Part shown: positions 22,138-45,299 of the stretch, one piece after another | How the letters are laid out: the number at the start of each line of letters is the position of its first letter | How positions within the stretch are numbered: position 1 is the first letter of the stretch | From: Croceicoccus estronivorus | Lineage (GTDB): Bacteria > Pseudomonadota > Alphaproteobacteria > Sphingomonadales > Sphingomonadaceae | Reading direction: 5' to 3' | Assembly (NCBI RefSeq): GCF_001625325.1 | Contig: NZ_JRQQ01000006.1 | Location: forward strand, 124,001 to 188,000 | Length of the DNA stretch: 64,000 nt | Translations under genes and position numbers: made by a program | The notes under the pieces: model-generated | The model's input: the letters and a program-made list of their open reading frames with translations, nothing else | Database searches by the model: none | What the model was told of the DNA's origin: nothing

Positions 22138-22151
22138 TTATGCATTCGTCC
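22138..22151 (+). promoter_or_regulatory. Weak copy of the ATATGCATTRGACG motif upstream of the AraC gene
   Basis: TTATGCATTCGTCC matches the 14-base motif found at 29433, 39635 and 45016 at 10 of 14 positions. It lies about 72 bases upstream of the AraC-gene start, close to the spacing seen before the MFS gene. On its own it is not convincing. Confidence 0.25.
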
Positions 22152-29405: not shown

Positions 29406-29432
29406 TACCTGCTGTAATAGTTTCGAACAACA

Positions 29433-29446
29433 ATATGCATTAGACG
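29433..29446 (+). promoter_or_regulatory. Candidate operator ATATGCATTRGACG, copy 1
   Basis: ATATGCATTAGACG lies between the LysR and TBDR genes. The same 14 bases occur exactly on the opposite strand at 45016-45029 upstream of the MFS gene, and with one mismatch at 39635-39648 upstream of the monooxygenase. Flanks also agree with the 39635 copy (CAAT before ATGCATT, CAG after). The core ATGCAT is self-complementary, as expected for a dimeric repressor or activator. Confidence 0.55.
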
Positions 29447-29538
29447 TCAGCAATGCACCAGGTAATGTTCGTTGTCACTAGGTGAGTGAATACAGGGGCC
29501 GGAAAAGATTCGGGTGCGAATTTCTCGTGTCTGAAAAA

Positions 29539-29569
29539 ATTCTATCTGAATAAATTTACTCAATAGAAT
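29539..29569. promoter_or_regulatory. Inverted repeat in the TBDR leader
   Basis: ATTCTAT (29539-29545) and ATAGAAT (29563-29569) are perfect inverted arms with a 17-base AT-rich spacer. They end about 50 bases before the TBDR start. An operator or overlapping promoter is possible; function is unproven. Confidence 0.35.
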
Positions 29570-29620
29570 CAATTCACAAGATTAAATTATAACAATCGAA
29601 TAAGTTTGGGAGAAATTTTC

Positions 29621-31939
29621 ATGAGAACGAGAGTTTATCCGCTCTTCGGCATTGCCATGCTTACTTTGGCCAGCGGCGCTCATGCTCAAACGGATAATGG
29701 GCCGGAACAGAATTCCGCCACATCCACCAAGGGGCTTGAGGACATCATCGTCACTGCCCGCCGTACATCTGAATCCATGCAGAACGTGCCTGTCGCCGTT
29801 ACCGCTCTCTCCGGCGACTTCCTTGATCGCCAGAACATTGTCGACAGCACGTCCCTCACCCAACTTGCCCCCTCGCTGACCGTTCTGCCGACGCCGAACA
29901 GTCAGTCCGCCGGGACAGTCTATATCCGCGGGATGGGCAACCACGAGCCTTCGTCGGTATCGGAACAGGGCGTGGGGATCTATCTCGACGGGGTTTATCT
30001 TGCCCGCTCGTCTGGTGCGCTATTCGACCTCGTCAGCCTCGAACGCGTCGAGGTGCTGCGCGGACCGCAGGGCACTCTGTTTGGCCGCAACACCATTGGC
30101 GGCGCGCTTGTCCTGACATCGAAGAAGCCGGCAGACGAAATGGGCGGCGAAGTCAAACTCGGCTATGGCCGTTACAACGACTGGTTCGTGCGCGGCAAAA
30201 TCGACACCGGATACATCGGCAATTCCAATATCAAGGCTTCGATCAGCGCCCAGCACAGGCAGAACGACGGGTGGGTCAACAATACCCTGACTGGCGGATC
30301 CAAGGATTTCGGCTCGCTCAAGGCCAATTCCGTCTTCGCCTCGGTGGAAGGAGACTTCGGTCCGCTGACGGCGACTTACAATTTCGACTTCGATTACCGC
30401 AGCGGCACACCGACTTATTTCCAGATCACGACCGCGACCGATGACGTCATCAATTACTATAGCCAATCGCCCGACTTTGGCGGCGCACCATTCCTGTATG
30501 GTCCCGATCGGCTTCAGGATGTCCAGGGCACCGGGTTCGTCGATCAGAACGGCAAGACACGCTTCAATTCCTACTCGCGAATTTCAGGCCACTCGCTGAC
30601 GCTCAATTATGAAGCAAGCGATGCGCTGACGATCAAGTCGATCACCAGCTACCGCCGTTTCCTCCAGAATACGATTGCCGACCTCAGCGGCAATGGCGAA
30701 CTGCTGGGCGTAACGCTCGACCCTGTCACATACGATGTGGACGGCATCAATGTCGTAGTGCCGTACAAAGGGAACCTCGCCCCGCAACGCCAGCATCAGT
30801 TCAGTCAGGAACTGCAGTTCCTCGGATCGTCCGGCGATCTCAAATACCTGGGCGGCCTCTATTATTTCCACGAGAAGTCGTTTGAATCCAACCGCCAGGC
30901 GCTCACTTTCGTACTCGAAGGCGGCGATGCGGGGCTGAACCTCTATCCTCTCCAGGCGTTTGGCGGCACATCGGAATCGAAGGCAGTCTTCGGCCAGGTC
31001 AGCTGGACTCCATCCTCTCTCGATCAGAAGCTCGAACTCACATTGGGCGGACGCTACACGGAGGACAAGAAGACCATCCGGCTGACTGGCGATGTCAGTC
31101 CCGAACTGCGCGGCAAAGTGAAATTCGACAACTTCTCCTGGCTCGCATCGCTTTCATACAAATTCACGCCGGGGGTCATGGCCTACATGCGGTTCTCTAC
31201 CGGCTACCGTTCCGGCGGGTTCAATCCTCGCACATCCACGCTCAACCCGTTCGAACCGGAAAAGGCCAAGGTCTATGAAGCAGGCCTCAAGTCCGAATTC
31301 CTCGACCGGCGCCTGCGCTTCAACCTGGCCGCCTATATTACCGACTATGACAATCTGCAGGTTCAGCAATTCGCTGCAGGCTCGGGCGGCGCGACATCCC
31401 TGACTGTCAATGCAGGCAAAGTGCAGCTGAAGGGGTTCGAAGCGGAAATGACCGTGACTCCGATCCCCGGCCTGATATTCGACGGGTCGGTCGGTTACAC
31501 CGATACGAAGTACAAACAGTTCCTGTTCCGCGATCCCGCGACGGATACCGTAAGCGATGTCGCAGATCAGGCAAAGCCGGTCTATACTCCCAAATGGACC
31601 CTGCATCTGGGCGGCGAATATTCCCAGCCCATCGGCGATGCGACCATGCGAATGCGGGTCGATTATTCACACCGGACGCAAGTCTATTTCAACGCTCTCA
31701 ATATCACCGCGCCGTTCAATGAAGAGATCAGGTCGCCGGCCGATGATAACGTGAAAGCACGCCTGTCAGTCGAAGGAATCGACCTGGGCGGGTCGAAGCT
31801 CGATGTCGGCATCTGGGGAGACAACCTGACCAATCAGAAGAACATCCTTTACGGTATCGACTTCGGATCGCTCGGCTTTGCCGGGGCAACTTTCAAGAAG
31901 CCCCGTACCTACGGTATCGACGCCAAGGTGAGCTTCTGA
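29621..31939 (+). CDS. TonB-dependent outer-membrane receptor 2
   Basis: A 772-residue receptor starting at ATG 29621 with GGGAGAAA 5-6 bases upstream; an earlier in-frame TTG includes that ribosome site and is rejected. Signal peptide about 1-23 (ends AHAQ), TonB-box region GLEDIIVTARRTSESMQNVP (about 38-57), plug motif VEVLRGPQGTLFGRNTIGGA, and a C-terminal barrel strand ending in VSF. It diverges from the LysR gene and precedes the isomerase-sulfotransferase operon, so it is the likely uptake gate for that pathway. A hairpin follows at 31990. Confidence 0.94.
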   Translation: MRTRVYPLFGIAMLTLASGAHAQTDNGPEQNSATSTKGLEDIIVTARRTSESMQNVPVAVTALSGDFLDRQNIVDSTSLTQLAPSLTVLPTPNSQSAGTVYIRGMGNHEPSSVSEQGVGIYLDGVYLARSSGALFDLVSLERVEVLRGPQGTLFGRNTIGGALVLTSKKPADEMGGEVKLGYGRYNDWFVRGKIDTGYIGNSNIKASISAQHRQNDGWVNNTLTGGSKDFGSLKANSVFASVEGDFGPLTATYNFDFDYRSGTPTYFQITTATDDVINYYSQSPDFGGAPFLYGPDRLQDVQGTGFVDQNGKTRFNSYSRISGHSLTLNYEASDALTIKSITSYRRFLQNTIADLSGNGELLGVTLDPVTYDVDGINVVVPYKGNLAPQRQHQFSQELQFLGSSGDLKYLGGLYYFHEKSFESNRQALTFVLEGGDAGLNLYPLQAFGGTSESKAVFGQVSWTPSSLDQKLELTLGGRYTEDKKTIRLTGDVSPELRGKVKFDNFSWLASLSYKFTPGVMAYMRFSTGYRSGGFNPRTSTLNPFEPEKAKVYEAGLKSEFLDRRLRFNLAAYITDYDNLQVQQFAAGSGGATSLTVNAGKVQLKGFEAEMTVTPIPGLIFDGSVGYTDTKYKQFLFRDPATDTVSDVADQAKPVYTPKWTLHLGGEYSQPIGDATMRMRVDYSHRTQVYFNALNITAPFNEEIRSPADDNVKARLSVEGIDLGGSKLDVGIWGDNLTNQKNILYGIDFGSLGFAGATFKKPRTYGIDAKVSF

Positions 31940-31989
31940 CGGCGCATCGCAGGGGTCTTTCCACGTCCTGAGGGGAACCCCTGCCACAA

Positions 31990-32015
31990 GGGCCGGATCG
32001 GGAATTGTCCGGCCC
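31990..32015 (+). terminator. Hairpin after TonB receptor 2
   Basis: GGGCCGGA (31990-31997) pairs perfectly with TCCGGCCC (32008-32015) around a 10-base loop, followed by GTTCT. A second, longer-looped inverted repeat, GCAGGGGT and ACCCCTGC, lies just before it. It may attenuate rather than fully stop transcription into the downstream isomerase gene. Confidence 0.5.
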
Positions 32016-32125
32016 GTTCTAGATGACCGGAAGCCTGACCGATGTCGTTGCAACACGACAGGCGGCCAAACACGTTGGACATTGCTGCCCGACCGCAGCC
32101 AAATGAATACCGATTGGGAGATGTC

Positions 32126-32926
32126 ATGCATCCGCGCATTTCGATCAACACGATCAGCACGCTGACGTGGCCGTTGGCCGACGATCTCGCGATGCTGCGC
32201 CGCCTTGGAGCAAAGCGGATCGGCTTCCCGCTGATGAAGATCGAAAACGATATTGCCGGCGGCATTGCCGCGATCCGGCAGGCAGGCCTCGAAGTCACTT
32301 GCGTGGCCGCCTTGGATGCAACGGCGAGCCTGCTCGGTGAAGGGGAAGCCATGACGGTACTCGCCCCCTCGATCGACGCTACCGCACAGGCGGGCTGTTC
32401 GCTGTGTTATTTCACATCGGGGCGGACTCCGCCGCGCATGTCGACCGACGCCGCATGCACAGCACTCACCTCCGTACTTCCGGAAGTCGCGGCCTACGCT
32501 GAACGGCAAGGGGTGCGTCTGGCCGTCGAAAACAATTCGATCACCAACCGCAATATCGGCTTCGTTCATACGCTGCCCGATGCGTTCAGGCTATGCGGGG
32601 AGGCCGGCATCAGCCTCTGCCTCGAGTTGCAGAACTGCTGGTACGAGCGCGATCTGCCGCGGCTGTTTCGCGAAAACATGCATCACATCGCGCAAGTTCA
32701 GGTGAGTGATTTCATGGTCGGTGAGGAACTGAGGCTCAATCGCCGCGCACTGGGCGACGGTACGATGCCGTTGGCCTGGCTGATCACGGAACTGCTCGAG
32801 GCGGGATATGCGGGTGTGTTCGATATCGAGATCATCGGGCCCAGCGTCGACGCGGAAGGTCCGGAAATAGCACTTCAGCGCAGCATCGACTGGCTGAACA
32901 ACCTGCTGATGGAGCGAGGCGCATGA
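32126..32926 (+). CDS. Xylose-isomerase-like TIM-barrel protein (sugar phosphate isomerase/epimerase family)
   Basis: A 266-residue AP_endonuc_2-type TIM barrel. The start is set at ATG 32126, which has GGGAGATG upstream; an open frame from 32042 has none. Candidate metal ligands lie on strand ends: Glu in LAVENNS, Glu/Gln in CLELQNCW, His/Gln in HIAQVQVSD, and Glu in VFDIEIIG. Such proteins isomerise or epimerise hydroxyketones or sugars with a divalent metal. The stop overlaps the sulfotransferase ATG, so this opens a four-gene coupled operon. Confidence 0.85.
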   Translation: MHPRISINTISTLTWPLADDLAMLRRLGAKRIGFPLMKIENDIAGGIAAIRQAGLEVTCVAALDATASLLGEGEAMTVLAPSIDATAQAGCSLCYFTSGRTPPRMSTDAACTALTSVLPEVAAYAERQGVRLAVENNSITNRNIGFVHTLPDAFRLCGEAGISLCLELQNCWYERDLPRLFRENMHHIAQVQVSDFMVGEELRLNRRALGDGTMPLAWLITELLEAGYAGVFDIEIIGPSVDAEGPEIALQRSIDWLNNLLMERGA

Positions 32927-34095
32927 CTGTCGAATATCCTTCCGCCAAAGAACTCATGGACCGGGCCAGCGAACAGACCGGTCTGGATGATTTCGGTGAA
33001 CCGACTTTCCTCGAAGGGCTGGACGTCATGCGCGAAAGCCTTGCGGCCGACGTGCCATATGGCCCTGCCGACCGGGAAAAGGCGATCAACCTGATTGTCC
33101 GCCGCCTTGCCAATCGCTTGCAGATCGAAGCCTGGTTTGCCGCACATCCCGGGGCGGAAAACGCGCCGATCGAAAATCCGATTTCCATCGTCGGATTGCC
33201 ACGCACCGGTACGACGGCACTGGGCAACATGCTTTCGCTCGAACCCCAATTCCGATCCTTGCGCGCGTGGGAGCAGGAACAGCCTTGTCCGCCGCCACGA
33301 CTGGAGGATGAAGAGCGTGATCCGCGGCGGGTAGCCTATGTGACAATGGTGGAGAACCTCCTGCGCGACGATCCGGAACAGGCGGCAATGCATTTGTGGG
33401 ACGCAGATGCTTCGGTCGAGGATACCGAAGTGCTCGGCCTCGAATTCCGGTCACAGCAGATGACAATGCCGATCTGGCGCTATCACGACTGGTGGCGGAA
33501 AGGGGACATGCGGCCCACCTTCGCCTACCATGCGCGCGTTGCCCGGCTGCTGCAATCCAGCCGCCCGCCCAATCGCTGGCTGTTCAAGGCACCGCACCAC
33601 AAGTTCCATCTGGACCATATGGTCGACGCCTATCCCGATATCCGGTTCGTCTTCACCCACCGCGACCCGGTGAAGTCGGTGCCGTCCTACGCCAGCTTCG
33701 TGGCGTCGCTCTATCCCCCTGAAGTGGTGGCCAAGATAGGCAAGGAGAAAATCGGCCGGGAGATTCATAGCCATCTCCTTACGGGAATGCACCAGGCCAT
33801 GGCCGCCCGTGAAAAGCTCGGGCCCGATCGCTTCCTCGACGTGCATCATGCCGACTTCGTTGCCCGCCCGATGGAAGAGCTGGAGCGTATCTACGACTGG
33901 CTCGGCATGGAGCTGACCAATGCCATGCGGCAGCGGTTTGAAACCTGGCGCGAGGAAAACCACTCGGGCGCACACGGCGCCCATCGTTACACCGCCGAGG
34001 AATACGGCATGTCGCCCGAGCAACTGCGCGAAGATTTCGATTTCTATATCCGCGCCCTCGACATTCCTTCCCGCCGATTAGGAGCACATGCATGA
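32923..34095 (+). CDS. Sulfotransferase-family protein (Sulfotransfer_3 type)
   Basis: A 390-residue P-loop sulfotransferase-fold protein. The phosphate-binding loop is GLPRTGTT (91-98) after strand PISIV. The 3'-phosphate region is FTHRDPVKSVPS (244-255), giving R247 and S252 as the likely PAP-contacting pair. The C-terminal LRPG-like helix of cytosolic sulfotransferases is replaced by GAHRYTAEEYGM (about 352-363). It overlaps both neighbours by ATGA. Family members in sphingomonads and mycobacteria sit in degradation clusters with no proven sulfated product, so the real chemistry here is open. Confidence 0.88.
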   Translation: MTVEYPSAKELMDRASEQTGLDDFGEPTFLEGLDVMRESLAADVPYGPADREKAINLIVRRLANRLQIEAWFAAHPGAENAPIENPISIVGLPRTGTTALGNMLSLEPQFRSLRAWEQEQPCPPPRLEDEERDPRRVAYVTMVENLLRDDPEQAAMHLWDADASVEDTEVLGLEFRSQQMTMPIWRYHDWWRKGDMRPTFAYHARVARLLQSSRPPNRWLFKAPHHKFHLDHMVDAYPDIRFVFTHRDPVKSVPSYASFVASLYPPEVVAKIGKEKIGREIHSHLLTGMHQAMAAREKLGPDRFLDVHHADFVARPMEELERIYDWLGMELTNAMRQRFETWREENHSGAHGAHRYTAEEYGMSPEQLREDFDFYIRALDIPSRRLGAHA

Positions 34096-35045
34096 TTGAA
34101 GGACGCAAGATCCTGATTACCGGGCCTGCCGGGCAGATTGCCTTCCCAATGGCTCGCGAACTGGCAAAGCACAACGAGGTATGGGGTATTGCCCGCTTCA
34201 GCGATCCCGCCAGCCGGCAGGAAGTGGAAGCCGCGGGAATCCGGACACTGGCGATCGACATCGCTGATCCCGATTTCTCCGAATTGCCCAAGGATTTCAC
34301 GCATCTCCTGCATCTTGCCGCCGTCGTCCAGGGCGACGATTATGAAGCAGCGATGCGGATCAACGCGGAAGGCACGGGGCTGCTGCTGTCGCACTGCCGC
34401 AATGTCGAGGCAGCGCTCGTGATGTCGACGGTTTCGGTTTATAAACCGCACCCCGATCCCTGGCATCTGTTTCACGAAGACGATCCACTGGGCGATATCA
34501 TGCTGCCCATGGCGCCAGCCTATTCGATCGGGAAAATCGGCGAAGAAGCCGTAGCCCGCTTCTGCGCCCGTGAGTTCAATATTCCCATCACCATTGCGCG
34601 CATGGGGGCATCCTATGGCCCCCGTGGCGGCCTTCCGGTGTTCGTTATGCAGGCCTTGGCCACAGGGAAGCCCGTGACGACACGCTGGGATCCGTGCCCC
34701 TACAGCCCGATCCACGACGATGACATGCTGGCGCACGTCGGCCCTCTGCTGGAAGCAGCAAGCGTTCCGGCCACGATCGTCAACTGGGCGGGCGACGAAG
34801 CCGTCAGCATACAGCAGATCGTGGAATACGGCGCAGAACTGCTAGGGCTCGAACCTCGTATAGAAGTGGTCGAAGTACCCGGTGCTTCGATCGGTTCTGC
34901 CGTTGACGCGACCAGACGATTGGCGATCACCGGCCCATGCAAGGTCCAGTGGAAAGAGGGAATATATCGCACCCTCAAGGAGCTCTACCCCGATCGCATA
35001 AAGCCTGAACATGGCAGGCAGGAAGAGGAAACCCAACATGACTGA
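34092..35045 (+). CDS. NAD-dependent epimerase/dehydratase (extended SDR)
   Basis: A 317-residue extended short-chain dehydrogenase. The N-terminal nucleotide motif is ITGPAGQIAFPMA (about 8-20), a variant of TGxxGxxG. Catalytic Tyr/Lys are in APAYSIGKIGEE (Y-x-x-x-K), and the Ser position is in MSTVSVYKP. It overlaps the sulfotransferase by 4 bases and the next gene by 8, so production is coupled. Complete active-site residues make oxidoreductase or epimerase activity likely, unlike the epimerase-like protein at 7194. Confidence 0.9.
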   Translation: MIEGRKILITGPAGQIAFPMARELAKHNEVWGIARFSDPASRQEVEAAGIRTLAIDIADPDFSELPKDFTHLLHLAAVVQGDDYEAAMRINAEGTGLLLSHCRNVEAALVMSTVSVYKPHPDPWHLFHEDDPLGDIMLPMAPAYSIGKIGEEAVARFCAREFNIPITIARMGASYGPRGGLPVFVMQALATGKPVTTRWDPCPYSPIHDDDMLAHVGPLLEAASVPATIVNWAGDEAVSIQQIVEYGAELLGLEPRIEVVEVPGASIGSAVDATRRLAITGPCKVQWKEGIYRTLKELYPDRIKPEHGRQEEETQHD

Positions 35046-36228
35046 CAGCAAACTGCGCATGCCCGAATGGGATGCGATGCTAAAGAATATCGCGCCTGTC
35101 GGCGACCAGCTTGTGAACCGCTGGGGCCGCGAGAATCCTGACGCCGACGACCGGCGGGAATTGTTCCTTCTCGCCCTTTCGGCGGTTGCCAACGGCTATC
35201 TCGATCACGTTTCGTTCGATCCGCGCAAGCCGACCTGGACGCCATGCTGGAATATCGCGATGAACATGGGCGGGCCGTGCCCCGACTACACTTACAACTC
35301 GACCGAAGTCGACCCGAAGGGCACATATCGCCTTTCCGGATTCCGCGGGACCAATCGCTTCGTCGAAGTCGGACAGCAAAGCTATGAACTGCTCGGTCAC
35401 GAAGGCCCGACTTCGCATCCCCCCGTTCAGAATGCGCTCGACGAACTGACACTGGGAAAAGACGGCTGGTTCAGCGTGATCTTGAGTGCGGAGCGCCCTG
35501 CCGGTTACGATGGCGACTGGTGGAAGCTGGAGCCATGGACTGCCCGCCTTTTGATGCGCCAATGTTCAGTCGACTGGATCAACGAAGTCGATGCCCGGAT
35601 GGCGATCGAACGGCTTGACGACGGCCCCGAAACATCGGCTGCCGAAAAGGACCGCCGGATCGGCAATCTCGGCCCATGGGCCGAGGGGATGGTACGCTTC
35701 GACATCGACCTCGCCCGCTGGTATCGGGAAAACCACGGCGTCAACGTGCTTACACGTTCGAAAAAGATCGAAAGCATCGGGGGCATGCCCAACCAGGTCT
35801 ATTATGACGGGGCCTACGAAATCGAAGATGACGAAGCTCTGGTGATCGAAACGGCCCTGCCGCAGTCGTGCCTTTATTGGTCCCTGCTGGTGGCCGACGA
35901 CCGGTTCAGCACGATCGACTGGGCCAATCGGCAAACCAGCCTTAACGAATCCCAGGCCCGCATCGATTCCGACGGCAAGCTACGCGTCGTGATCTCGAAG
36001 CAGGATCCGGGCGTGCAAAACTGGATGGACAAGGCGGACAATCCCTGGGGCATCATACAGATGCGGTGGAAAGTCCCCAGCGATGCACCCGACGCGACGG
36101 TGACACGGTGCAAGGTCGCCGACGTGCGGCAGCATCTGCCCGCGGACACGCCCATCTACACCGCTGAAGAACGGGCCGAAGCGATCCACAAACGCCGTGT
36201 CGGTTATCAATTGCGCAAACACTGGTAA
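35038..36228 (+). CDS. DUF1214-domain protein
   Basis: A 396-residue soluble protein; start ATG 35038 lies inside the previous gene's end after GGAAGAGGAA. The C-terminal about 120 residues match DUF1214: ALVIETALPQSCLYWSLLVA, a region with TSLNESQARIDSDGKLRVVI, the DPGVQNWMD loop, and IIQMRWK. The N-terminal half lacks a recognisable domain and carries no DUF1254 partner. It is the last gene of the isomerase-sulfotransferase-epimerase operon. DUF1214 function is unknown; co-occurrence with sulfotransferase genes is a recurring pattern that I recall, not one I could check. Confidence 0.82.
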   Translation: MTDSKLRMPEWDAMLKNIAPVGDQLVNRWGRENPDADDRRELFLLALSAVANGYLDHVSFDPRKPTWTPCWNIAMNMGGPCPDYTYNSTEVDPKGTYRLSGFRGTNRFVEVGQQSYELLGHEGPTSHPPVQNALDELTLGKDGWFSVILSAERPAGYDGDWWKLEPWTARLLMRQCSVDWINEVDARMAIERLDDGPETSAAEKDRRIGNLGPWAEGMVRFDIDLARWYRENHGVNVLTRSKKIESIGGMPNQVYYDGAYEIEDDEALVIETALPQSCLYWSLLVADDRFSTIDWANRQTSLNESQARIDSDGKLRVVISKQDPGVQNWMDKADNPWGIIQMRWKVPSDAPDATVTRCKVADVRQHLPADTPIYTAEERAEAIHKRRVGYQLRKHW

Positions 36229-36271
36229 GCCACCGTCAGTGGCGGATAGCGCACTGGCTGGCACATGATGG

Positions 36272-36299
36272 CAGGGCCACTCTCCAGAGAGTGGCCCTG
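36272..36299. terminator. Strong bidirectional hairpin between convergent operons
   Basis: CAGGGCCACTCT (36272-36283) and AGAGTGGCCCTG (36288-36299) form a perfect 12-base stem with a CCAG loop. It is followed by TGTCTTTC on the plus strand. It sits in the 77-base gap between the DUF1214 and alcohol dehydrogenase stops, and would stop both transcripts. Confidence 0.75.
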
Positions 36300-36305
36300 T
36301 GTCTT

Positions 36306-37397
36306 TCAGTAGACAAATACCCCGCGAGCGAGCTTTCCTGACTGCAGATCGTCGAAGGCTTGCGCGAAATCGTCGAGCGCATAACGCTGACTGACCAGCT
36401 CATCGAGCTTGAGAATGCCGTTCTCGTACATCGAGAGGTACGTGTTGATATCACGGTTCGGCTGCGAAGTGCCGTAACGGACCCCCATGATTCCGCGATC
36501 AATGATCAACAGGGGCTGGATCGGTATTTGCAGCTCCGCGCCCGGCTTCGCATTGCCGATGACGACGCAGGTCCCGCCCCAGGCCAGTGCCTCGACCGCA
36601 CCGCGCAGGGATTGACTGTTCCCCGTGCATTCGAACACCCAGTCGACACCACTGGCGGCGGCGTTCTTCGGGTCGGCGAACATTTCCTTCAACCGGCTGG
36701 TGGTATCCTCTCTGGAAGCATCGATAAAATCCGTTGCGCCGAAATCGCGCGCCATTTCCTCCCGGCTTGCCAGGAGATCGACAGCCACGATGCGGGATGC
36801 ACCGGCTACGCGAAGCCCCTGGACCACATTCAGACCGATCCCGCCAACGCCGATTACCGCTGCCGCCTCACCCGGCTCCACCTGAGCGCGGTGGAGAACG
36901 GCCCCCATACCGGTCATGACACCACAACCGATGACACAGGCAAGATCGAGAGGAATCGATGGATCAATCTTCACTACCTGCTGGCGTTTGACCACAGTCA
37001 GTTCGGCGAATGTCGAAGTGGCCGCGAAGTTCGAAACCGCCATGTCACCGAGACGGAACGGTTCGCTGCGATTGCCCAGTGTCGAGCGGCAACGGGTCGG
37101 CTTGCCGGCAACGCATTGCGAACAGTAGCCGCAATGGGTCAGAGTGTGCAGCGCGACATGGTCGCCCGGCTTGACGTGCGTAACCTCGGACCCGACACAT
37201 TCGACGATGCCGGCGCCTTCGTGGCCGAGCACTGCCGGTGCCGGCCATTCGATCGTACCATCCAGCACTGCAATATCGCTGCGACAGATTCCACTGGCGG
37301 CGATACGCACCAGCACTTCGTCGGGCGCAGGGTCACGCACTGTCAGTTCTTCGGTATAGCTGACCTTATTCGGCCCTTCGTAAATCAATGCTCGCAC
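36306..37397 (-). CDS. Zinc-dependent alcohol dehydrogenase (MDR, class III-like)
   Basis: A 363-residue medium-chain dehydrogenase. Catalytic zinc ligands are C38, H59 and E60 (GHEGAG), with C158 (IGCGV) as the third thiol. Structural zinc Cys are C89, C92, C95 and C103 in CGYCSQCVAGKPTRC. NAD motif is GVGGIGLN (183-190). The GTG at 37397 is preferred since GGGAGAAA lies 7 bases before it. It oxidises an alcohol or reduces a ketone, and it is 87 bases downstream of the Baeyer-Villiger-type monooxygenase, which fits ketone formation before lactone formation. Confidence 0.93.
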   Translation of the reverse strand: MRALIYEGPNKVSYTEELTVRDPAPDEVLVRIAASGICRSDIAVLDGTIEWPAPAVLGHEGAGIVECVGSEVTHVKPGDHVALHTLTHCGYCSQCVAGKPTRCRSTLGNRSEPFRLGDMAVSNFAATSTFAELTVVKRQQVVKIDPSIPLDLACVIGCGVMTGMGAVLHRAQVEPGEAAAVIGVGGIGLNVVQGLRVAGASRIVAVDLLASREEMARDFGATDFIDASREDTTSRLKEMFADPKNAAASGVDWVFECTGNSQSLRGAVEALAWGGTCVVIGNAKPGAELQIPIQPLLIIDRGIMGVRYGTSQPNRDINTYLSMYENGILKLDELVSQRYALDDFAQAFDDLQSGKLARGVFVY

Positions 37398-37484
37398 CGT
37401 ATTTTCTCCCAGGTCGCAGAGCATCCTCCCGCCCCGTCAGGACGAGGGAAGCTCTGTCGTTGATAATGCTGGCTCGCGCACCGT

Positions 37485-39383
37485 TCAGGTCAGCTGGAGG
37501 TCATCCCATTCGACTTCCGTGCACATGCGATGGAAATCGTGGCTCAACCACGGAGCGTTGACCTGGATGCGTCCATGTTCGGCATTGACGAAGTAATTCT
37601 TGTCCATGCCGCCTTCCTTGGTCATCTGGACCAGCTTGGCGCTCTCCGCATCCAGCCTGGCGTTATATCGTTCGAAGGCCTCGGGCTTCACATCGACGCG
37701 CGATTTGCCCTGCCGCAACATCTCCATCACGCATCGCGCGGCATAAGACGCCCAAACGACATACCACGAGGGCATCGGAGTTCCCCCGGTCACAAGCTGT
37801 GCATTGGGTCCATGGAGCATGAACATGTTGGGAAAACCCGGCATCATCATGCCCAGATACGCCCGGGGCCCATCGCGCGATTCCCAAGTCTCGTGCAGGT
37901 CCTGACCTTCATGGCCGACATATTTCGTGGGCCACAGGTATTTGACGACTTCGAAACCAGTGGCTGCAACGATAACGTCGACCTCAAGCTCCTCGCCATT
38001 TTCCGCGACGAACCCGTTCTCGGTTAACCGGGTGATACCACAGGCGACCAGTTCGACATTGTCGCGGGTCAGAGCCTGGTACCAGCCGTTGTCGACCACC
38101 GGCCTGCGCGAGAACGGCGCGTAATCGGGCGTAACCTTTTCGATCAGATCCTTGCGCCCACCGGTCTGTTCATGAATGTAGCCGGTCAGAAACTTGCGCA
38201 GTTCGTCATTGCGGGGATTCACGTGCCCGCCCTGAGCCTGCCATTCCGGATCTGTAATCTGGAGTTCGTGAATGTCGAACAGCGCCGCTGTCGCCATGTA
38301 TCGCCACCAGTTTCGATAACCGGGAAAATGCGCAATCACCCATGCTAGTTCGGGAGTGATCGGCTGGCCGTATCCTTCCCTCGGGCTGATCCATTGCGGA
38401 GTGCGCTGGACCACGTAAACCTGTTCGGCCACCTCGGCGATATTCTTCAGGATTTGCACCCCGGTCGAACCGTTTCCAACGATCGCAACGCGTTTACCGC
38501 GCAGCTCGACATCCTCGTCCGGCCATCGCGCAGTGTGCACGATACGCCCCCTGAACGCCTCCATCCCTTCGAATGAAGGCAGCTTGGCGTTTGCGAACAA
38601 CCCGACCGCAGTGATCACCACATTGGCTTCCACTATTCCTGGGCCGTCCGAAGTATCCATTTCCAGTACCCAGACATCGCGTGCCTCGTCGAAAGTGGCG
38701 TTATTCACTTCACAGCCGAAGCGGGTGTTGCTCTCGATGCCGTACCGTTCCGTAATATGCTGCAAGTAAGAACGAACGCTGGCCCCCTTGCAGAAATGTT
38801 CGTCCCAATCGTAGCTGTCTTCGAAACTGTATTCGTAACTGATCGAAGGTGTATCGACCCGCACACCTGGATAGCGGTTGATCTGCCATGTGCCGCCGGG
38901 ACGCTGCTGCCGTTCAAGGACGACATAGGGAATGCCCAGCAGACGGCACTGCATCGCTGCGGCAATCCCTGCGACCCCACTGCCGATGATGGCGACGGAA
39001 AACCCCTCGGGAATTGTCACCTTTTCCCCTTCCCAATCGACGGCGAACGGGAACGGGCGAAAACCGGGAACGTCCCGGCGCGCAGTAAATTCGAGATCGC
39101 TCATGGGCTGCCCGGTAGCCATTTCCATCAGGCGGCGGAGTTCCGGCAACTCGGGTTCGGGCATAGCCGTGCGTGTCCCGTTCTCCTGCAGCCAGGCCAC
39201 GACCCTGGCGATCAGGAGGTCGCGTTGCTGCGGCGCAAGCTGCGCAGCGACCGGCAGCGCCGCAATCTCATTGTCGTGGGTCTGTTGGTAGAGCGCCACC
39301 CGCACAGCATCCAGGTTCGCTTGCTCCAGCCCACGGCGGATAAATCCGGCATCCACTTGTGCGTCGAGTTCGGCCACGCTCAT
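37485..39383 (-). CDS. Flavin Baeyer-Villiger-type monooxygenase (HAPMO-like)
   Basis: A 632-residue FAD/NADPH monooxygenase with an N-terminal extension of about 125 residues, as in 4-hydroxyacetophenone monooxygenase. First Rossmann motif GSGVAG (134-139), Baeyer-Villiger fingerprint FRGRIVHTARWP (277-288, matching F-x-G-x3-H-x3-W-P), second Rossmann motif GNGSTG (303-308). It converts a ketone to an ester or lactone. ATG 39383 has GAGGAG upstream. The neighbouring alcohol dehydrogenase could supply the ketone, and the alpha/beta or cyclase-like hydrolases could open the lactone. Confidence 0.93.
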   Translation of the reverse strand: MSVAELDAQVDAGFIRRGLEQANLDAVRVALYQQTHDNEIAALPVAAQLAPQQRDLLIARVVAWLQENGTRTAMPEPELPELRRLMEMATGQPMSDLEFTARRDVPGFRPFPFAVDWEGEKVTIPEGFSVAIIGSGVAGIAAAMQCRLLGIPYVVLERQQRPGGTWQINRYPGVRVDTPSISYEYSFEDSYDWDEHFCKGASVRSYLQHITERYGIESNTRFGCEVNNATFDEARDVWVLEMDTSDGPGIVEANVVITAVGLFANAKLPSFEGMEAFRGRIVHTARWPDEDVELRGKRVAIVGNGSTGVQILKNIAEVAEQVYVVQRTPQWISPREGYGQPITPELAWVIAHFPGYRNWWRYMATAALFDIHELQITDPEWQAQGGHVNPRNDELRKFLTGYIHEQTGGRKDLIEKVTPDYAPFSRRPVVDNGWYQALTRDNVELVACGITRLTENGFVAENGEELEVDVIVAATGFEVVKYLWPTKYVGHEGQDLHETWESRDGPRAYLGMMMPGFPNMFMLHGPNAQLVTGGTPMPSWYVVWASYAARCVMEMLRQGKSRVDVKPEAFERYNARLDAESAKLVQMTKEGGMDKNYFVNAEHGRIQVNAPWLSHDFHRMCTEVEWDDLQLT

Positions 39384-39718
39384 CCAATCCCACTCCTCAA
39401 TTCTGTTGTTCCAGAGCCGGGGTCGCCGGCTTCTCATCAATCCCGGAAATGTGGCGCACAGCCTCGGTCCGAACACCGCGTTGAGCGTCGGCCATGGCAA
39501 TCGACGCCACTTTTCACCGTTGTCCGTTCCCGATTATCGCAACCCTGCGACAGCTCGTATCGACGAAGCCCGCAATGAGGCGGCCTCCCGTCGCCCTCCG
39601 GGAACCAAGCCAATATGATCCGGCGTTGACCTGCCGTCCAATGCATATTGTGACTGAACAAGATGCAGGTGAGTAATAATAAAACGCATCCATCGCCACA
39701 TATGGCAAGCGGCAGGAA
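39384..39718. promoter_or_regulatory. Upstream region of the monooxygenase gene
   Basis: A 335-base gap between the monooxygenase start and the end of the PQQ dehydrogenase on the same strand. It carries the third copy of the 14-base motif (39635-39648) and a nearby partial CCAATATGATCCGG (39610-39623). This suggests an internal promoter within the minus-strand gene set. No gene seen in it. Confidence 0.45.
39635..39648 (-). promoter_or_regulatory. Candidate operator ATATGCATTRGACG, copy 2
   Basis: On the minus strand this reads ATATGCATTGGACG, one mismatch from the copies at 29433 and 45016. Flanking bases ACAA before and GCAG after also resemble copy 1. It is about 250 bases before the monooxygenase start, so the leader would be long. 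Confidence 0.5.
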
Positions 39719-42121
39719 TCAACGGCTACTCCGACCGGAAAGCGCGAAAGCAACTATGTAATCGCCCGGTGGTGTATCCAGCATGGGATGCCCCCCAGCC
39801 GCCACAACGACGATCTGTCGCCCACTTTTGGGGGCGCTGTAAGTCATAGGTGTCGCATTGGCGGAAGCCGGCAGACGAGCGGACCAGAGCATCTTGCCTG
39901 TCGCCCCGTCGAACGCGCGAAAGCGATTGTCGCCCGATGCTCCCATGAAAACCAGGCCACTGCCGGTTGCAAGGCTGCCACCCAGCACCGGCACACCCAT
40001 CTCGAGCGGGAACGGAACCCGCACACCGGCCACGCGACTCTCCGATGCCAGCCCGACACGGCGGGTCCAGAGAAGTTTGCGATTGGTGAGATCAATCGCT
40101 GAGAGCCGCCCATATGGCGGTGCATTACAGGGAATGCCCAATATCGGCGAAACGAAGGGGGCAACCGTGGATGCAAATGGCGTTCCTGACTGCGCAACCA
40201 CGCCACCGATAAAGCCCCCGGGCTTTATCGGTGCGATCCCATCCGCATCGGCTTCGCTACGCGGCACCAGCCGATTGCGGAGAAGCAATCGATTCCAGGG
40301 AACATAAGCAATGCCGCGCTGCGGATCGATAGTTGCCCCGCCCCAATTCACACCGCCCAGCGCGCTGGGCATCTGTAGATAGAAGCGGTCGGATGGCGGG
40401 GTCATCGGCCCATCCCAAATCGCCTGACGAAAGCGTATCCGACACCACAACGCGTCGTAAGGTGTCAGGCCCCACATATCGCTTTCCGATACCGGAAGGC
40501 CATCGAGAGCGGGCATACCGACCGAAAAGGGTTGCGTGGGTGACAAGCGTTCACCCGGCACGCCGCCCTGCGGCACGGGTTTTTCAACCACTTTCGCCAG
40601 CGGCTTGCCCGTCTGCCGATCGAGGAGGAACATCTGTCCCCGCTTGGTCGGCTGGAAAAGTGCCCGCACACGCTTTCCATCCACTTTCAGATCCACCAGC
40701 CCCGGCTGGGACGCCACATCGAAATCCCACAAGTCGTGATGCACCGTCTGAAACACCCAGCGGACCTTGCCGGTGGCAGCGTCGAGCGCGACAACGGCAC
40801 TTCCGTATCGATCGTCGAGAGCGGTGCGATGTCCTCCCCAGTAATCCGGTGTCGCGACCCCGGTCGGCACAAAGACAAGCCCGAGTTCTTCATCCGCACT
40901 CATCGGTGCCCAGCTGTTCGGAGTTCCGCGCACGAAGTGCCTGCCATTGGCGGGAAAGCTGTGGTCGTCCGGATTGCCGGGATCGAATGCCCAGGATGCG
41001 GCACCGCTGACGGCATCGTAGGCCCTGATGGCGCCCCCAGGCTCACCGACGAATTGTCCGTCCGCGACCCGGCTGTTGACCACCACTTTGCCGCCAATCA
41101 CGACGGGAGGGGAACTGGTCGATACGTAGGACGGGATAACATCGCCCAGACCTTTGGTCAGATCGACCTCTCCTCCGTCCCCGAATGCAGGACATAAGGT
41201 CCCGGTCCGGGCATCCACTGCCACGAGACGCGAGTCGACCGTTGCCTCGAAAATACGTTCAGCGCATTGCGCCCCCGGCTTTGCATCGGGTTGCCTGAAA
41301 TAGGTAACCCCACGGCATGCGGAAGAAGGCTCGACCACGGCAAGATCCACCTTGGGATCGAACACCCAGCGTTCAGCCCCGCTTTCCGCATCGAGCGCGA
41401 TAATCTTGCTGCGACCGGAACAAAGGTACAGACTGTCACCGATCTTTATCGGCGTCACTTCCAGCCTGCGCAACGGACCTTGCCCGGGCGGATAATCACC
41501 GGTGCGATAGGTCCAGGCAACTTTCAGCCCCGATACGTTGTCACGATCGATCCGCGACAGCGGCGAATAACGCGTGCCCCCCGGATCATTGCCATAATTT
41601 ATCCAGTCGCCCCCGTTGTCGTATCCGCTGTTCACCAGTATCGGGCTCGCCCGGGTGCCAGCCGCCGTGGCAAAGGGATCCCCGGCAAACCATCCGGCCA
41701 CTGCAGTCGCACCGATCAGCACGAGCGTGCAGGCCATGGCCCAACGCACACCTTGCGGAGCTTGCGGGCCGTGGACCAACCCCTTGCGAACGGGCTTCAG
41801 AAGATACCCTGCCCCAAGCAAAAGCGGAAAACCCAACCGCGACAGCAAGATCCAGAAATCGAAAGCCCCGTCGGCCAGCGCCCAGACCCACGTGCAGAAC
41901 AGCAAGGTCGCGTAACCGACCGCGCTCCACCCCGATCCCCGCCATGCCAGTATTCCCGAGACCAAGACGGCAAGGCCGCACAGGAAGTAATATGCGCTAC
42001 CGCCTAGCGAGAGCAGCCAGAGGCCCCCTGCCATGATCGGCAGCCCTGCCAGAAGCAGGATCGCGGCGTAAATCCTGTGCCACCGGCCTAGGCGAACCAC
42101 GCCCTCCTGGTCCCTTGCCAT
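39719..42121 (-). CDS. Membrane-bound PQQ-dependent dehydrogenase (glucose/quinate/shikimate type)
   Basis: An 800-residue quinoprotein. Five N-terminal membrane helices (about residues 12-150) are followed by an eight-bladed propeller domain in the periplasm, beginning GGDWINYGNDPGGTRYSPLS (about 187-206). It oxidises a sugar or polyol and passes electrons to ubiquinone. The start is ATG 42121, or the adjacent GTG 42124. It is 12 bases after the VOC gene, so part of the MFS-cyclase-VOC operon. The substrate in this context need not be glucose; related enzymes take quinate, shikimate and cyclic polyols. Confidence 0.93.
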   Translation of the reverse strand: MARDQEGVVRLGRWHRIYAAILLLAGLPIMAGGLWLLSLGGSAYYFLCGLAVLVSGILAWRGSGWSAVGYATLLFCTWVWALADGAFDFWILLSRLGFPLLLGAGYLLKPVRKGLVHGPQAPQGVRWAMACTLVLIGATAVAGWFAGDPFATAAGTRASPILVNSGYDNGGDWINYGNDPGGTRYSPLSRIDRDNVSGLKVAWTYRTGDYPPGQGPLRRLEVTPIKIGDSLYLCSGRSKIIALDAESGAERWVFDPKVDLAVVEPSSACRGVTYFRQPDAKPGAQCAERIFEATVDSRLVAVDARTGTLCPAFGDGGEVDLTKGLGDVIPSYVSTSSPPVVIGGKVVVNSRVADGQFVGEPGGAIRAYDAVSGAASWAFDPGNPDDHSFPANGRHFVRGTPNSWAPMSADEELGLVFVPTGVATPDYWGGHRTALDDRYGSAVVALDAATGKVRWVFQTVHHDLWDFDVASQPGLVDLKVDGKRVRALFQPTKRGQMFLLDRQTGKPLAKVVEKPVPQGGVPGERLSPTQPFSVGMPALDGLPVSESDMWGLTPYDALWCRIRFRQAIWDGPMTPPSDRFYLQMPSALGGVNWGGATIDPQRGIAYVPWNRLLLRNRLVPRSEADADGIAPIKPGGFIGGVVAQSGTPFASTVAPFVSPILGIPCNAPPYGRLSAIDLTNRKLLWTRRVGLASESRVAGVRVPFPLEMGVPVLGGSLATGSGLVFMGASGDNRFRAFDGATGKMLWSARLPASANATPMTYSAPKSGRQIVVVAAGGHPMLDTPPGDYIVAFALSGRSSR

Positions 42122-42133
42122 CACAGGCTTGCC

Positions 42134-42562
42134 TCAGTCGCGCATGCACATGAGCTCGATACGGGCGCCATCGGGATCGAGGCAGTGGAGGAAAGTGCCC
42201 TGTTCGCTTTCCAGCAGCGTTTCCCTGATGAGTTGTCCGCCATATGCTTCTATCTTCTTCGCCACCGGTTCGATCGCATCGACCAGCAAACCGATATTGA
42301 CGATCCCGACACGATAGACCGGCCGCTGCCCCGCAGGAACTTCGGGTTCGGGATACTGCAGCAAGGCAATGTGAAGATCGTCCAGTGTCACAAACTGGCA
42401 GACGAGAGGCAGGGGTGGAAAATCGTCATTGTCCGCCTTGAAATCCGCCCCCAGCTCGTGGCGCGCACCCACCTGGAAATCCAGCGCACTGGTATAGAAC
42501 TCAAGCGAACGATCCGCGTCGGTAACGCTCAAACCCACATGCGAAAAACCGGTGACACCCAT
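42134..42562 (-). CDS. Glyoxalase/VOC-superfamily protein
   Basis: A 142-residue vicinal oxygen chelate protein with two beta-alpha-beta-beta-beta units. The first begins FSHVGLSVTDADRSLEFYT, giving His8 as a metal ligand; the last strand has DPDGARIELMCM with Glu as a second. Members are lyases, isomerases (methylmalonyl-CoA epimerase) or ring-cleaving dioxygenases. GGGAG precedes the ATG. It lies between the cyclase-like hydrolase and the PQQ dehydrogenase genes. Function within the pathway cannot be fixed from sequence. Confidence 0.85.
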   Translation of the reverse strand: MGVTGFSHVGLSVTDADRSLEFYTSALDFQVGARHELGADFKADNDDFPPLPLVCQFVTLDDLHIALLQYPEPEVPAGQRPVYRVGIVNIGLLVDAIEPVAKKIEAYGGQLIRETLLESEQGTFLHCLDPDGARIELMCMRD

Positions 42563-42617
42563 TTCGAAACTCCCACTTCGTCAGTTGTTGTTTTTCAGCC
42601 GGACTGGCCCACTCCGC

Positions 42618-43619
42618 CTAGACCGTCGCAATGGGCGTGAGCGGCGATCCGACACTGCCCGGCAGGCGCAGAGGGGGGGCCGTCAAAAGAAACACGTGCC
42701 GCCGCCTTTCGAGCAGCCATGCAGCCAATTGCTCCAGATACCAGAGCTCCCCCAGGAAAATGCCCTGGCGAAACAGGCACAGATCGTGGATCGGCAGCCG
42801 GATCGGCGGGGGCTCCGGCGACAGGATCAGATCAAGCGCTTCGATGGCCACATTGTCCGAACAGATCGCGACAATCCCACTATCGATAATCCACTGATGC
42901 AGGGCTTCATCCTTGCCATCGAGCGCACAGCACATGGTGTGGATTGGCGCGCTGTCTCCTCGCGCCTCTCTTTCCAGCAGCAGCTTGTCGAAACCGGTGT
43001 ATAGAACCAGAAAGTCGCCGGGCAGCACTTCCACGCCCTGTTCATCCATCACTCGCAGCAAATCGTCCCGCGTGACCGCCCGGCCTTCGTTGCCGAAAGC
43101 CGCCTCGAGATTCACCATGACCCCGCGGCCCTGCACCCCGGCCATGGCAAGCGTTTCGATACCGAGGGCATGTGCATGCGTTTCATGCGTAGCGCCTAGC
43201 GGGCCCGCCACATCCTCGTTCGCGCGAAAACCGTTATAATAAACCAGTTCTGCAACACCGTCGCCGTCTGCATCGAACGCCCGGCCACGGTGAGCGAGCG
43301 AATCCCACTGGGTCGAATGCTGCGTATGCAACGTCACCCGATCATCGCAGGTCAGTTCCTCGCCTCCCTCATCGACGCGGTTGAAAACGCTGCCCTGTTC
43401 GTCTTGCGCGGCATAGAGCGAAGGCGGTTGCCGGGATGGCGAGAGGGGAATAGTCGGCAAATTGAGCGGCAGGCTCAGCGTAAAGGTGATGCCCTCTCGC
43501 GCTTCAGCCAGCGCAACGCGCCGCCTTTCAGGCGTCAACAGATTCATTCGGCCGAGCTGGTCGTCCTCACCGAAATCACCCCAGTTCGATCCTTCGGGTC
43601 TGTTCACCCAGCGTGGCAT
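42618..43619 (-). CDS. Cyclase-family (kynurenine formamidase-like) metal hydrolase
   Basis: A 333-residue cyclase-family protein (PF04199 type). The metal-binding signature reads HSTQWDSLAH, a known variant of HxGTHxDxPxH, and further ligands appear in GATHETHAHALG. The start ATG 43619 has AGGAAAG upstream and lies 98 bases beyond the MFS stop. Members hydrolyse N-formyl groups, or open lactones and cyclic imides. In a gene set with a Baeyer-Villiger enzyme, lactone opening is an attractive inference. Confidence 0.85.
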   Translation of the reverse strand: MPRWVNRPEGSNWGDFGEDDQLGRMNLLTPERRRVALAEAREGITFTLSLPLNLPTIPLSPSRQPPSLYAAQDEQGSVFNRVDEGGEELTCDDRVTLHTQHSTQWDSLAHRGRAFDADGDGVAELVYYNGFRANEDVAGPLGATHETHAHALGIETLAMAGVQGRGVMVNLEAAFGNEGRAVTRDDLLRVMDEQGVEVLPGDFLVLYTGFDKLLLEREARGDSAPIHTMCCALDGKDEALHQWIIDSGIVAICSDNVAIEALDLILSPEPPPIRLPIHDLCLFRQGIFLGELWYLEQLAAWLLERRRHVFLLTAPPLRLPGSVGSPLTPIATV

Positions 43620-43716
43620 GATGACTTTCCTACTCTTTCCGGTGCTGAACGGTTGTCGGCATGTGTTTGTCGTAACGCCTTCGCGGCGGCTGGATCGGGC
43701 ATGCGTTGTGCGACCG

Positions 43717-44946
43717 TTAGGCCAGCCTGGCATTCAGGGTGCGCCGCCTGCCCATCCCGATCGCCAGCAAAAACAGCGCGCCCACTGCCGCATAGATCAG
43801 GCCGAAAACTGTTGTCGCAAAGGCTACCCCATCAGCAGCCACCAGCGGATAAACGACGATTGGATTCAGGAACTGCCCCAGGAACAGGGTGGAAATCGCA
43901 GTGCCCGCCGCACGATCGTGCAGACGCTCGGGAATCTCATGCAAGGCGCGCGAGATGATCGTCGGCTCAAGCGAACCGGCGCCGAAGCCGAGAACCACGG
44001 TTCCAATAAAAAAGGGCAGAAGACCGTTGGATTTCGCACAAATGAGCAGGCCTGCCGCGAATGCCATGGATATGAGAACGAACATTCCCTTCACATCCAG
44101 AAATCTCCGTATGGTTCCGTAAAGCAGCGCAACGCACATGGCCGAAACGGATGTCGTGGCAACGAGCAGGCCAATCATCGACGCGTTGGATATGCCCTTG
44201 GCTGCCGCAATGAAGGGAACCTGGATGACTGACATATAGACGCCGATCGCAAAGCCGATCTGGAGCAGCCACAGAGGCCAGAGACGGAGAATTGGCATCC
44301 ACCCGAGAGGGGCATCGTCCGTCTTGGGAACAGTGCCCTTGTACATGGAGAAAAATGCAAAGGGGATGATCACAATGCCGAGCAGATAGAGGGCGAAGAC
44401 GCTTCGCCATCCCAGCGCATCGACCATTACCCCTGAAATATTGAGCAGAACGAGCGCTGCGAACGCCCCGGCCCCGCCGCAAAAGCCGAGAATCCTGTTG
44501 CGTGCGTCCCCGATGAAATGCTCACCGACGACGGCATAGCTGGTGGCCAGCATTGCCCCCGATGCGACCCCGGTCAAAGCTCGGCTTGCAATCAGCAGAT
44601 TCAGATCTGTCAGGACCAGTCCGGCACAACCGGCGACCAGAAAAATGACTGCTCCGGCCAGTATGACCAGACGACGGCCAAGCCACTCGCTCACATATCC
44701 GGCAAATGCAGCACCCACGATCATGCCAATCGCGGAAATCGTCTGGATCATTTGCGCGACAAAGGATCCATCGGCCCCTCCGCCCAACTCATTCGCAATT
44801 GCGGGCAAAGCCGGTGATAACGGAGCAGTTGCGGTTGCATTCAATACGCCTGCCCAAAGGCATACGAATGCGATACCGGGGCGACCTGCAATAGTCGTAT
44901 TCGGCATGGTCCGTTGCGCAGACTGGGGACCGCTTCCAATATTCAC
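43717..44946 (-). CDS. MFS transporter
   Basis: A 409-residue major facilitator with 12 predicted membrane helices. Loop 2-3 has the signature-like GYVSEWLGRRLVILAG. It starts at GTG 44946 with GGGGAGAG 6 bases upstream. It is the first gene of the minus-strand operon and has motif copy 3 70 bases upstream. It could import the substrate from the periplasm after TBDR uptake and PQQ-dependent oxidation, or export a product. Direction and substrate are unknown. Confidence 0.9.
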   Translation of the reverse strand: MNIGSGPQSAQRTMPNTTIAGRPGIAFVCLWAGVLNATATAPLSPALPAIANELGGGADGSFVAQMIQTISAIGMIVGAAFAGYVSEWLGRRLVILAGAVIFLVAGCAGLVLTDLNLLIASRALTGVASGAMLATSYAVVGEHFIGDARNRILGFCGGAGAFAALVLLNISGVMVDALGWRSVFALYLLGIVIIPFAFFSMYKGTVPKTDDAPLGWMPILRLWPLWLLQIGFAIGVYMSVIQVPFIAAAKGISNASMIGLLVATTSVSAMCVALLYGTIRRFLDVKGMFVLISMAFAAGLLICAKSNGLLPFFIGTVVLGFGAGSLEPTIISRALHEIPERLHDRAAGTAISTLFLGQFLNPIVVYPLVAADGVAFATTVFGLIYAAVGALFLLAIGMGRRRTLNARLA

Positions 44947-45015
44947 GCAACACTCTCCCCGGTTCAGGATCTATAGTCCTGGCAGCGGGAGATATAGTAA
45001 CGGGCACACACCCGT

Positions 45016-45029
45016 CGTCTAATGCATAT
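45016..45029 (-). promoter_or_regulatory. Candidate operator ATATGCATTRGACG, copy 3
   Basis: On the minus strand this is ATATGCATTAGACG, identical over 14 bases to the copy at 29433. It is 70 bases upstream of the MFS start in the same relative orientation as copies upstream of the monooxygenase. This links the MFS operon to the LysR/TBDR control region 15.6 kb away. Confidence 0.55.
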
Positions 45030-45299
45030 CTATGCCTGTAAATATGACGTGTAGTAATGGAGAGGCGATACGACTCTAAAGCGGATATGCCGCGATAGCG
45101 GCAAGCTGCTGACGACCAGCGCGTAGAGGAAGCCAGGAAAACCCCACCCCAATCTGAATATTTGAACAAGGGCCAGGTTCTGGCGGTGCTGTCAGTCGGA
45201 TGACAACTTGTCTCCGTTTGACAAATGTTGGTCTTTGAGAGCGCGTACTCAAGCCATCAGCTTTTGCCACTCAGCGAAGGCAGCTGAGCGGCGGGCATT

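Follow-up and report, generated by a model that had tools for sequence, protein, structure and literature searches.

A 42-base LysR-type operator candidate ahead of three predicted operons of a catabolic cluster in Croceicoccus estronivorus

Examination of a 64,000-nucleotide stretch of the Croceicoccus estronivorus genome (NZ_JRQQ01000006.1, positions 124,001 to 188,000, or C22:124001-188000 in our numbering; hereafter the window) revealed three copies of a 42-base site, S1 to S3, in an uncharacterised catabolic cluster. The site has the form AT-N11-AT-N14-ATATGCATTRGAC, with identical spacing in the three copies; it is rare in the genome and is conserved beside homologues of the LysR-type regulator encoded next to S1, with a spacing that changes by clade. 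This local LysR protein is very probably the regulator of the operons that follow S1, S2 and S3. The operator looks real, yet of a well-known kind, and it would define a regulon of three operons in this cluster, for which a candidate regulator and precise operator positions can be given (Table 1).

The first-pass annotation had reported an exact repeat of a 14-base word, ATATGCATTAGACG, at 29433 and 45016 and a copy with one mismatch at 39635. All three were found in the window (29433-29446, plus strand; 45016-45029 and 39635-39648, minus strand), and in the whole genome (3,668,441 bases, 25 contigs) they are the only matches with at most one mismatch. At looser thresholds the word alone is near chance and nothing special: up to two mismatches give 10 matches genome-wide (7 with exactly two) versus 7 for the reversed control, and up to three mismatches give 5 in the window versus a shuffle mean of 3.41, with at least 5 in 23 of 100 shuffles. 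Since these counts are near chance, what matters is how exact the copies are, where they stand and what surrounds them. The three copies lie outside likely genes, as had been claimed, given the starts used for the LysR gene (29399, where the alignment with its paralogue begins), the TonB-dependent receptor (TBDR) gene (29621) and the MFS gene (GTG at 44946, chosen among candidates). The flanks of the word at S1 and S3 are identical at 19 of 40 positions upstream and 14 of 40 downstream.

The idea that the 14-mer is the operator stood only in part. It belongs to one, but it covers just the downstream half, in which ATATGCA is fused to the -35-like hexamer TTRGAC (together ATATGCATTRGAC); the recognition dyad lies upstream, and the 14-mer was rejected as a complete operator. 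In S1, S2 and S3 alike, ATTAC starts 29 bases upstream of ATATGCA and opens a 15-base dyad (ATTAC-CTGCT-GTAAT in S1, ATTAC-TCACC-TGCAT in S2 and ATTAC-TACAC-GTCAT in S3). The order within each site is thus dyad, 14 bases, ATATGCA, TTRGAC, 17 bases and a weak -10-like hexamer. Around S1 there is also a 13-base inverted repeat (29402-29414 / 29456-29468, ACATTACCTGCTG / CACCAGGTAATGT, 92% complementary), the second arm of which overlies the candidate -10; it could be an extra LysR contact.

A genome scan with the full pattern, allowing up to three mismatches and using the reversed pattern as a control, found 4 perfect matches in 3.67 Mb, none at one or two mismatches and 5 at three, while the control gave none. 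The pattern itself was read from these four sites, and what the scan tests is their isolation from other matches in the genome. Beyond the three known copies the genome thus holds one further full site, S4 (C23:49613-49654, minus strand), at the start of the closest LysR paralogue, which is the only other LysR that a search of this genome with a limit of E<=1e-60 returned (identity 58% there, 55% by blastp). A matrix built from 29 non-redundant sites, all from other genomes, scored exactly three places in the window above 6 bits, namely S1 to S3, and none in the 20 kb on either side; the best score in ten random 64-kb sequences was 10.6 bits. The 29 sites had been chosen by the window-derived pattern, so as far as the fixed letters go the matrix is no independent check. 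The bases between the conserved blocks vary among them, which indicates that the conservation is not just a matter of recent descent. The dyad of the relatives leans towards ATGC...GCAT, with GCAT found again in the element adjacent to the -35. Weaker matches had also been put forward as sites, at 22138 before the AraC gene and at 1360 before a flavin adenine dinucleotide (FAD) monooxygenase gene; they exist, and are chance-like, being two of the 25 four-mismatch matches within the window. They were dropped on that count and because only S1 to S3 exceed 6 bits there.

Evidence that the site goes with the regulator comes from homologues that were found by protein search and not by the motif. 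Among the 33 examined (30 from the genus of G326, one more from the family and the two of this genome), the N14 pattern with up to three mismatches adjoins the LysR match in 27, or 25 of the 31 outside this genome, with no mismatch in 15, one in 6, two in 4 and three in 2. It stands divergent to the LysR gene, 2-20 nt from the edge of the match and, after a start codon has been chosen, from 2 nt inside to 17 nt ahead of the start. For every one of these 27, 200 simple shuffles failed to yield an equally good match. The operator overlaps or ends a few nucleotides before many of these starts (e.g. L061-L080); given such scant leader room, the LysR mRNAs may be leaderless.

The search was also run in reverse, from pattern to neighbours. 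With at most one mismatch, the pattern occurs at 39 places in 28 of the 195 genomes of the genus of G326 (reversed control 0), and among the 397 family genomes 10 have it, at 15 places in all (one for the reversed control). The genus is probably Novosphingobium, since the one plasmid match, in Novosphingobium sp. RL4, shares its coordinates with a G494 locus. In that genus it is present in 19 of the 23 genomes with a LysR homologue (E<=1e-45) versus 9 of the 172 without (Fisher p ~5e-16). In the family, homologues at E<=1e-50 were found in 4 of the 397 genomes, ours among them, and in the class 1 of 385 genomes had one at E<=1e-40, namely this one. Of the 42 sites with at most one mismatch that were examined, four of which come from this genome, 33 have a divergent LysR gene within 30 bp.

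A tree of 50 LysR proteins places all 34 rows with the N14 form and 6 rows with a one-base-shorter N13 form inside one group of 42 (99/97, midpoint root), and the six N13 rows make up a single clade (100/100). The two remaining rows of the group are a third LysR of this genome (4 mismatches) and L103 (7 mismatches). As near-identical homologues were included, the rows do not count as independent events, and those from other genomes that are most distant (L063, L065, L069, L082, L085, L086 and L089) were recruited via the pattern, which favours the result.

Several observations weigh against a dedicated LysR operator, or against its breadth. In the six other protein-found homologues the N14 pattern does not stand out, as 45-97% of shuffles equal it; these are the carriers of the N13 form, with 3-4 mismatches, equalled by 0-2 of 500 shuffles, a form that was defined post hoc after those six had been seen. 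Nine of the 42 sites lack an adjacent divergent LysR gene (S2, S3, L060, L071, L081, L083, L087, L111 and L114), although in L060 and L081 one lies about 0.9 kb away, and 8 of the 39 genus places fell outside the set examined. With many homologues forming near-identical pairs, the counts lack independence, and below about 36% identity the LysR rows from other genomes came in via the pattern. Three other genomes of the same genus as our strain (G001-G003) contain no LysR homologue at E<=1e-60, for which reason the cluster looks accessory. A consensus promoter scan of 29350-29650 called no promoter at its threshold, and the -10 elements are plausible but weak: the best hexamer reaches 4 matching bases of 6 at 10 of 32 sites (29 from other genomes plus S1-S3) versus 2.6 expected by shuffling, a support that is statistical across sites only. 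Finally, by our own count the 21 LysR-domain matches in the genome represent 20 genes, and the loci outside the three site-bearing genes score below 0 with the matrix, bar one look-alike of 15.6 bits on C2, at the start of a LysR gene whose frame contains an internal TAG (L091, G000:C2:60172-60783). Given this weaker look-alike, LysR regulators in general may share part of the operator layout.

The layout is indeed familiar. PMC8407307 and PMC4730206 describe LysR-type operators in which the regulator recognises T-N11-A near -65, while activation sites lie near -35 and -10; once an inducer binds, it is believed to move from site to site (PMC8407307, PMC4730206, PMC11739112). An AT-N11-AT dyad is present in S1-S4 and beside the homologues, its distance to the start being a predicted one; the second element, ATATGCATTRGAC, lies over a -35-like hexamer and is conserved; and the regulator is divergent, with the operator between, at S1, at S4 and at the 33 sites mentioned above. 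As at the divergent-promoter operators those papers describe, the site abuts the LysR start. What differs from LysR-type operators at large, as portrayed there, are the half-site letters (ATGC/GCAT in relatives, ATATGCAT beside the -35) and how strongly the -35-proximal element is conserved. For the LysR family, a footprinting study gives a CTATA-n9-TATAG consensus, a three-repeat model and a conserved repeat across both promoters (PMC5002191). That consensus contains AT-N11-AT, and here too a conserved repeat overlaps both promoters; the less conserved middle repeat of that model is not resolved at our sites, and its six systems are gammaproteobacterial. The best NCBIfam match of our LysR protein is PcaQ (TIGR02424), near full-length at 117.3 bits. 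Identity with PcaQ was rejected, as this is far below the cut-off of 303.8 bits, and the PcaQ site in the same source, ATAaccgggggatTAT, has other letters. A PDB sequence search with E<=1e-15 returned no match, and a scan of genome contigs elsewhere with the LysR protein gave one distant locus (28% identity). No published account of the operator or of the cluster was found among the matches listed in literature searches; one of the listed papers deals with a repressor of the IclR type.

Since the site fits the published layout of a dyad plus a second element at -35, an activator that touches the -35 region can be proposed. The AT-N11-AT dyad, which lies at about -71 to -57 relative to the predicted promoters, would anchor an oligomer of LysR, and ATATGCA, abutting TTRGAC, would offer it a second contact. 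Provided that the promoters have been placed correctly, the second element would occupy -42 to -30. Bound to an inducer, the protein would switch on the TBDR-isomerase-sulfotransferase-SDR-DUF1214 operon, the monooxygenase-alcohol dehydrogenase operon and the MFS-cyclase-small ORF-PQQ dehydrogenase operon. A distance of 4 nt separates the S1 dyad from the start codon of the LysR gene, a closeness that suggests autorepression. We infer binding, activation, promoter positions, operon limits and the inducer from sequence. The first-pass proposal that an operator ties the three promoters into a LysR regulon is supported by the 42-base site that recurs beside the paralogue and the protein-found homologues. 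The three putative operons span 28.5-45 kb, with one site ahead of each.

Another regulator may bind mainly, either the paralogous LysR encoded on C23 or the AraC-type protein (20978-22066), with the local LysR secondary. We regard this as unlikely. The paralogue (58%) bears the same operator at its own start, which makes cross-binding plausible; in other genomes, however, the conservation follows the LysR homologues, and the vicinity of the AraC gene holds no site above 6 bits. Far less probable is that the three copies only represent a similar core promoter (a -35 with an upstream AT element) or duplicated promoter DNA without a dedicated regulator. TTRGAC does occupy the expected place of a -35 hexamer and S1 and S3 share part of their upstream flanks, but the genome contains the full pattern too seldom for it to be a core promoter, the pattern associates with LysR genes, and the dyad is kept at a fixed upstream distance in other genomes while the intervening bases vary. 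Chance repetition of the 14-mer, which its near-random counts at two and three mismatches might suggest, is next to impossible given that the only three matches with at most one mismatch all stand before genes of one cluster, that a fourth full site lies at a LysR paralogue and that the site is conserved in other genomes. The local LysR protein accordingly remains our preferred regulator of S1-S3.

The genes found next to the operator in relatives give a hint of what such regulators may control. The first long open reading frame (ORF) past each of 30 relatives' sites, picked mechanically, belonged in 18 cases to one cluster, of which two members were tested, both of them sulfatases, and in 5 to another, of which the single member tested is a fatty-acid hydroxylase. 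The other 7 were singles, including a flavin-enzyme-like protein, a coenzyme A transferase and dioxygenases of the TauD and PhyH types; one of the seven (L067) is probably in the wrong frame. Together with the sulfotransferases of the window and of C23, these genes might, speculatively, point to sulfated or oxygenated cyclic substrates. A tentative and rather doubtful extension is that this LysR clade shares one operator across proteins of about 30% identity and governs accessory pathways for sulfate esters and for oxygenation (sulfatases, sulfotransferases, hydroxylases, Baeyer-Villiger-type enzymes), the window cluster putting a sulfotransferase to catabolic use. Literature searches gave no published description of the clade among the matches listed. 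The 42-base pattern locates candidate targets of the clade elsewhere in the family, many of them before sulfatase-like genes, and offers a cheap route to regulon prediction and inducer search.

Table 1. Coordinates of the candidate operators, promoter elements and genes in the window.
Feature	Position	Strand	Basis
Operator S1 (AT-N11-AT-N14-ATATGCATTAGAC), LysR/TBDR intergenic	29404..29445	+	perfect pattern match; 27.4 bits; dyad 29404-29418
Operator S2, upstream of flavin (Baeyer-Villiger-like) monooxygenase gene	39636..39677	-	perfect pattern match; 30.4 bits; dyad 39663-39677
Operator S3, upstream of MFS gene	45017..45058	-	perfect pattern match; 39.4 bits; dyad 45044-45058
Candidate -10 of S1, TAATGT, 17 nt past TTAGAC	29463..29468	+	sequence reading
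Candidate -10 of S2, TCATAT, 17 nt past TTGGAC	39613..39618	-	sequence reading
Candidate -10 of S3, TACTAT, 17 nt past TTAGAC	44994..44999	-	sequence reading
LysR-type regulator gene, likely reader of the operator	28521..29399	-	Pfam HTH_1 4e-22, LysR_substrate 5.3e-20
TonB-dependent receptor (TBDR), first gene of operon 1	29621..31939	+	Pfam, start candidates
Remainder of likely operon 1: xylose-isomerase-like, sulfotransferase, short-chain dehydrogenase/reductase (SDR)/epimerase, DUF1214	32042..36228	+	Pfam, ORFs
Likely operon 2: flavin monooxygenase (37485-39500) and zinc alcohol dehydrogenase	36306..39500	-	Pfam, NCBIfam
Likely operon 3: MFS, putative cyclase, 142-aa ORF, membrane pyrroloquinoline quinone (PQQ) dehydrogenase	39719..44946	-	Pfam, NCBIfam, ORF list
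MFS transporter	43717-44946	-	Pfam; start GTG 44946
Putative cyclase	42618-43733	-	Pfam
142-aa ORF between cyclase and PQQ dehydrogenase, glyoxalase-like by eye	42134-42562	-	ORF list
Membrane PQQ dehydrogenase	39719-42124	-	TIGR03074 above cut-off

The LysR protein has an N-terminal HTH_1 and a C-terminal LysR substrate domain (Pfam), as is typical of a LysR-type regulator. In the second part of operon 1, all three junctions between the four ORFs overlap. The flavin monooxygenase of operon 2, whose true start is perhaps at 39383 instead of 39500, has as its best NCBIfam match pentalenolactone D synthase (172 bits versus a cut-off of 1100), which we take to be a Baeyer-Villiger enzyme. A break of operon 3 at a 493-base gap ahead of the PQQ dehydrogenase was considered and dismissed, since the 142-aa ORF fills this gap, leaving 55 and 9 nt around it; no terminator-like site was found in 42100-42680. 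If these gene blocks are operons, S1-S3 would serve genes from 28.5 to 45 kb.

No orthologous 16-kb cluster for direct comparison was found in another genome. A counterpart within our genome is the paralogous cluster on C23 (G000 C23:40000-59999, L015), which like the window combines LysR, sulfotransferase, DUF1214 and PQQ dehydrogenase genes with the same operator; unlike the window, it has a single operator ahead of the gene block. S4 faces sulfotransferase, DUF1214, TBDR, SnoaL-like and PQQ-dehydrogenase genes, and identities to the window genes are 69% for the sulfotransferase, 82% for DUF1214, 63% for the PQQ dehydrogenase and only 31% for the TBDR. Neither a monooxygenase nor an alcohol dehydrogenase was present among the ten C23 ORFs tested. 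Beside this cluster lies the third LysR gene (30% identity), which bears a weaker operator at its start (24.1 bits, AATGAATTTGAC, L015:11588-11629) and faces another TonB-dependent receptor gene.

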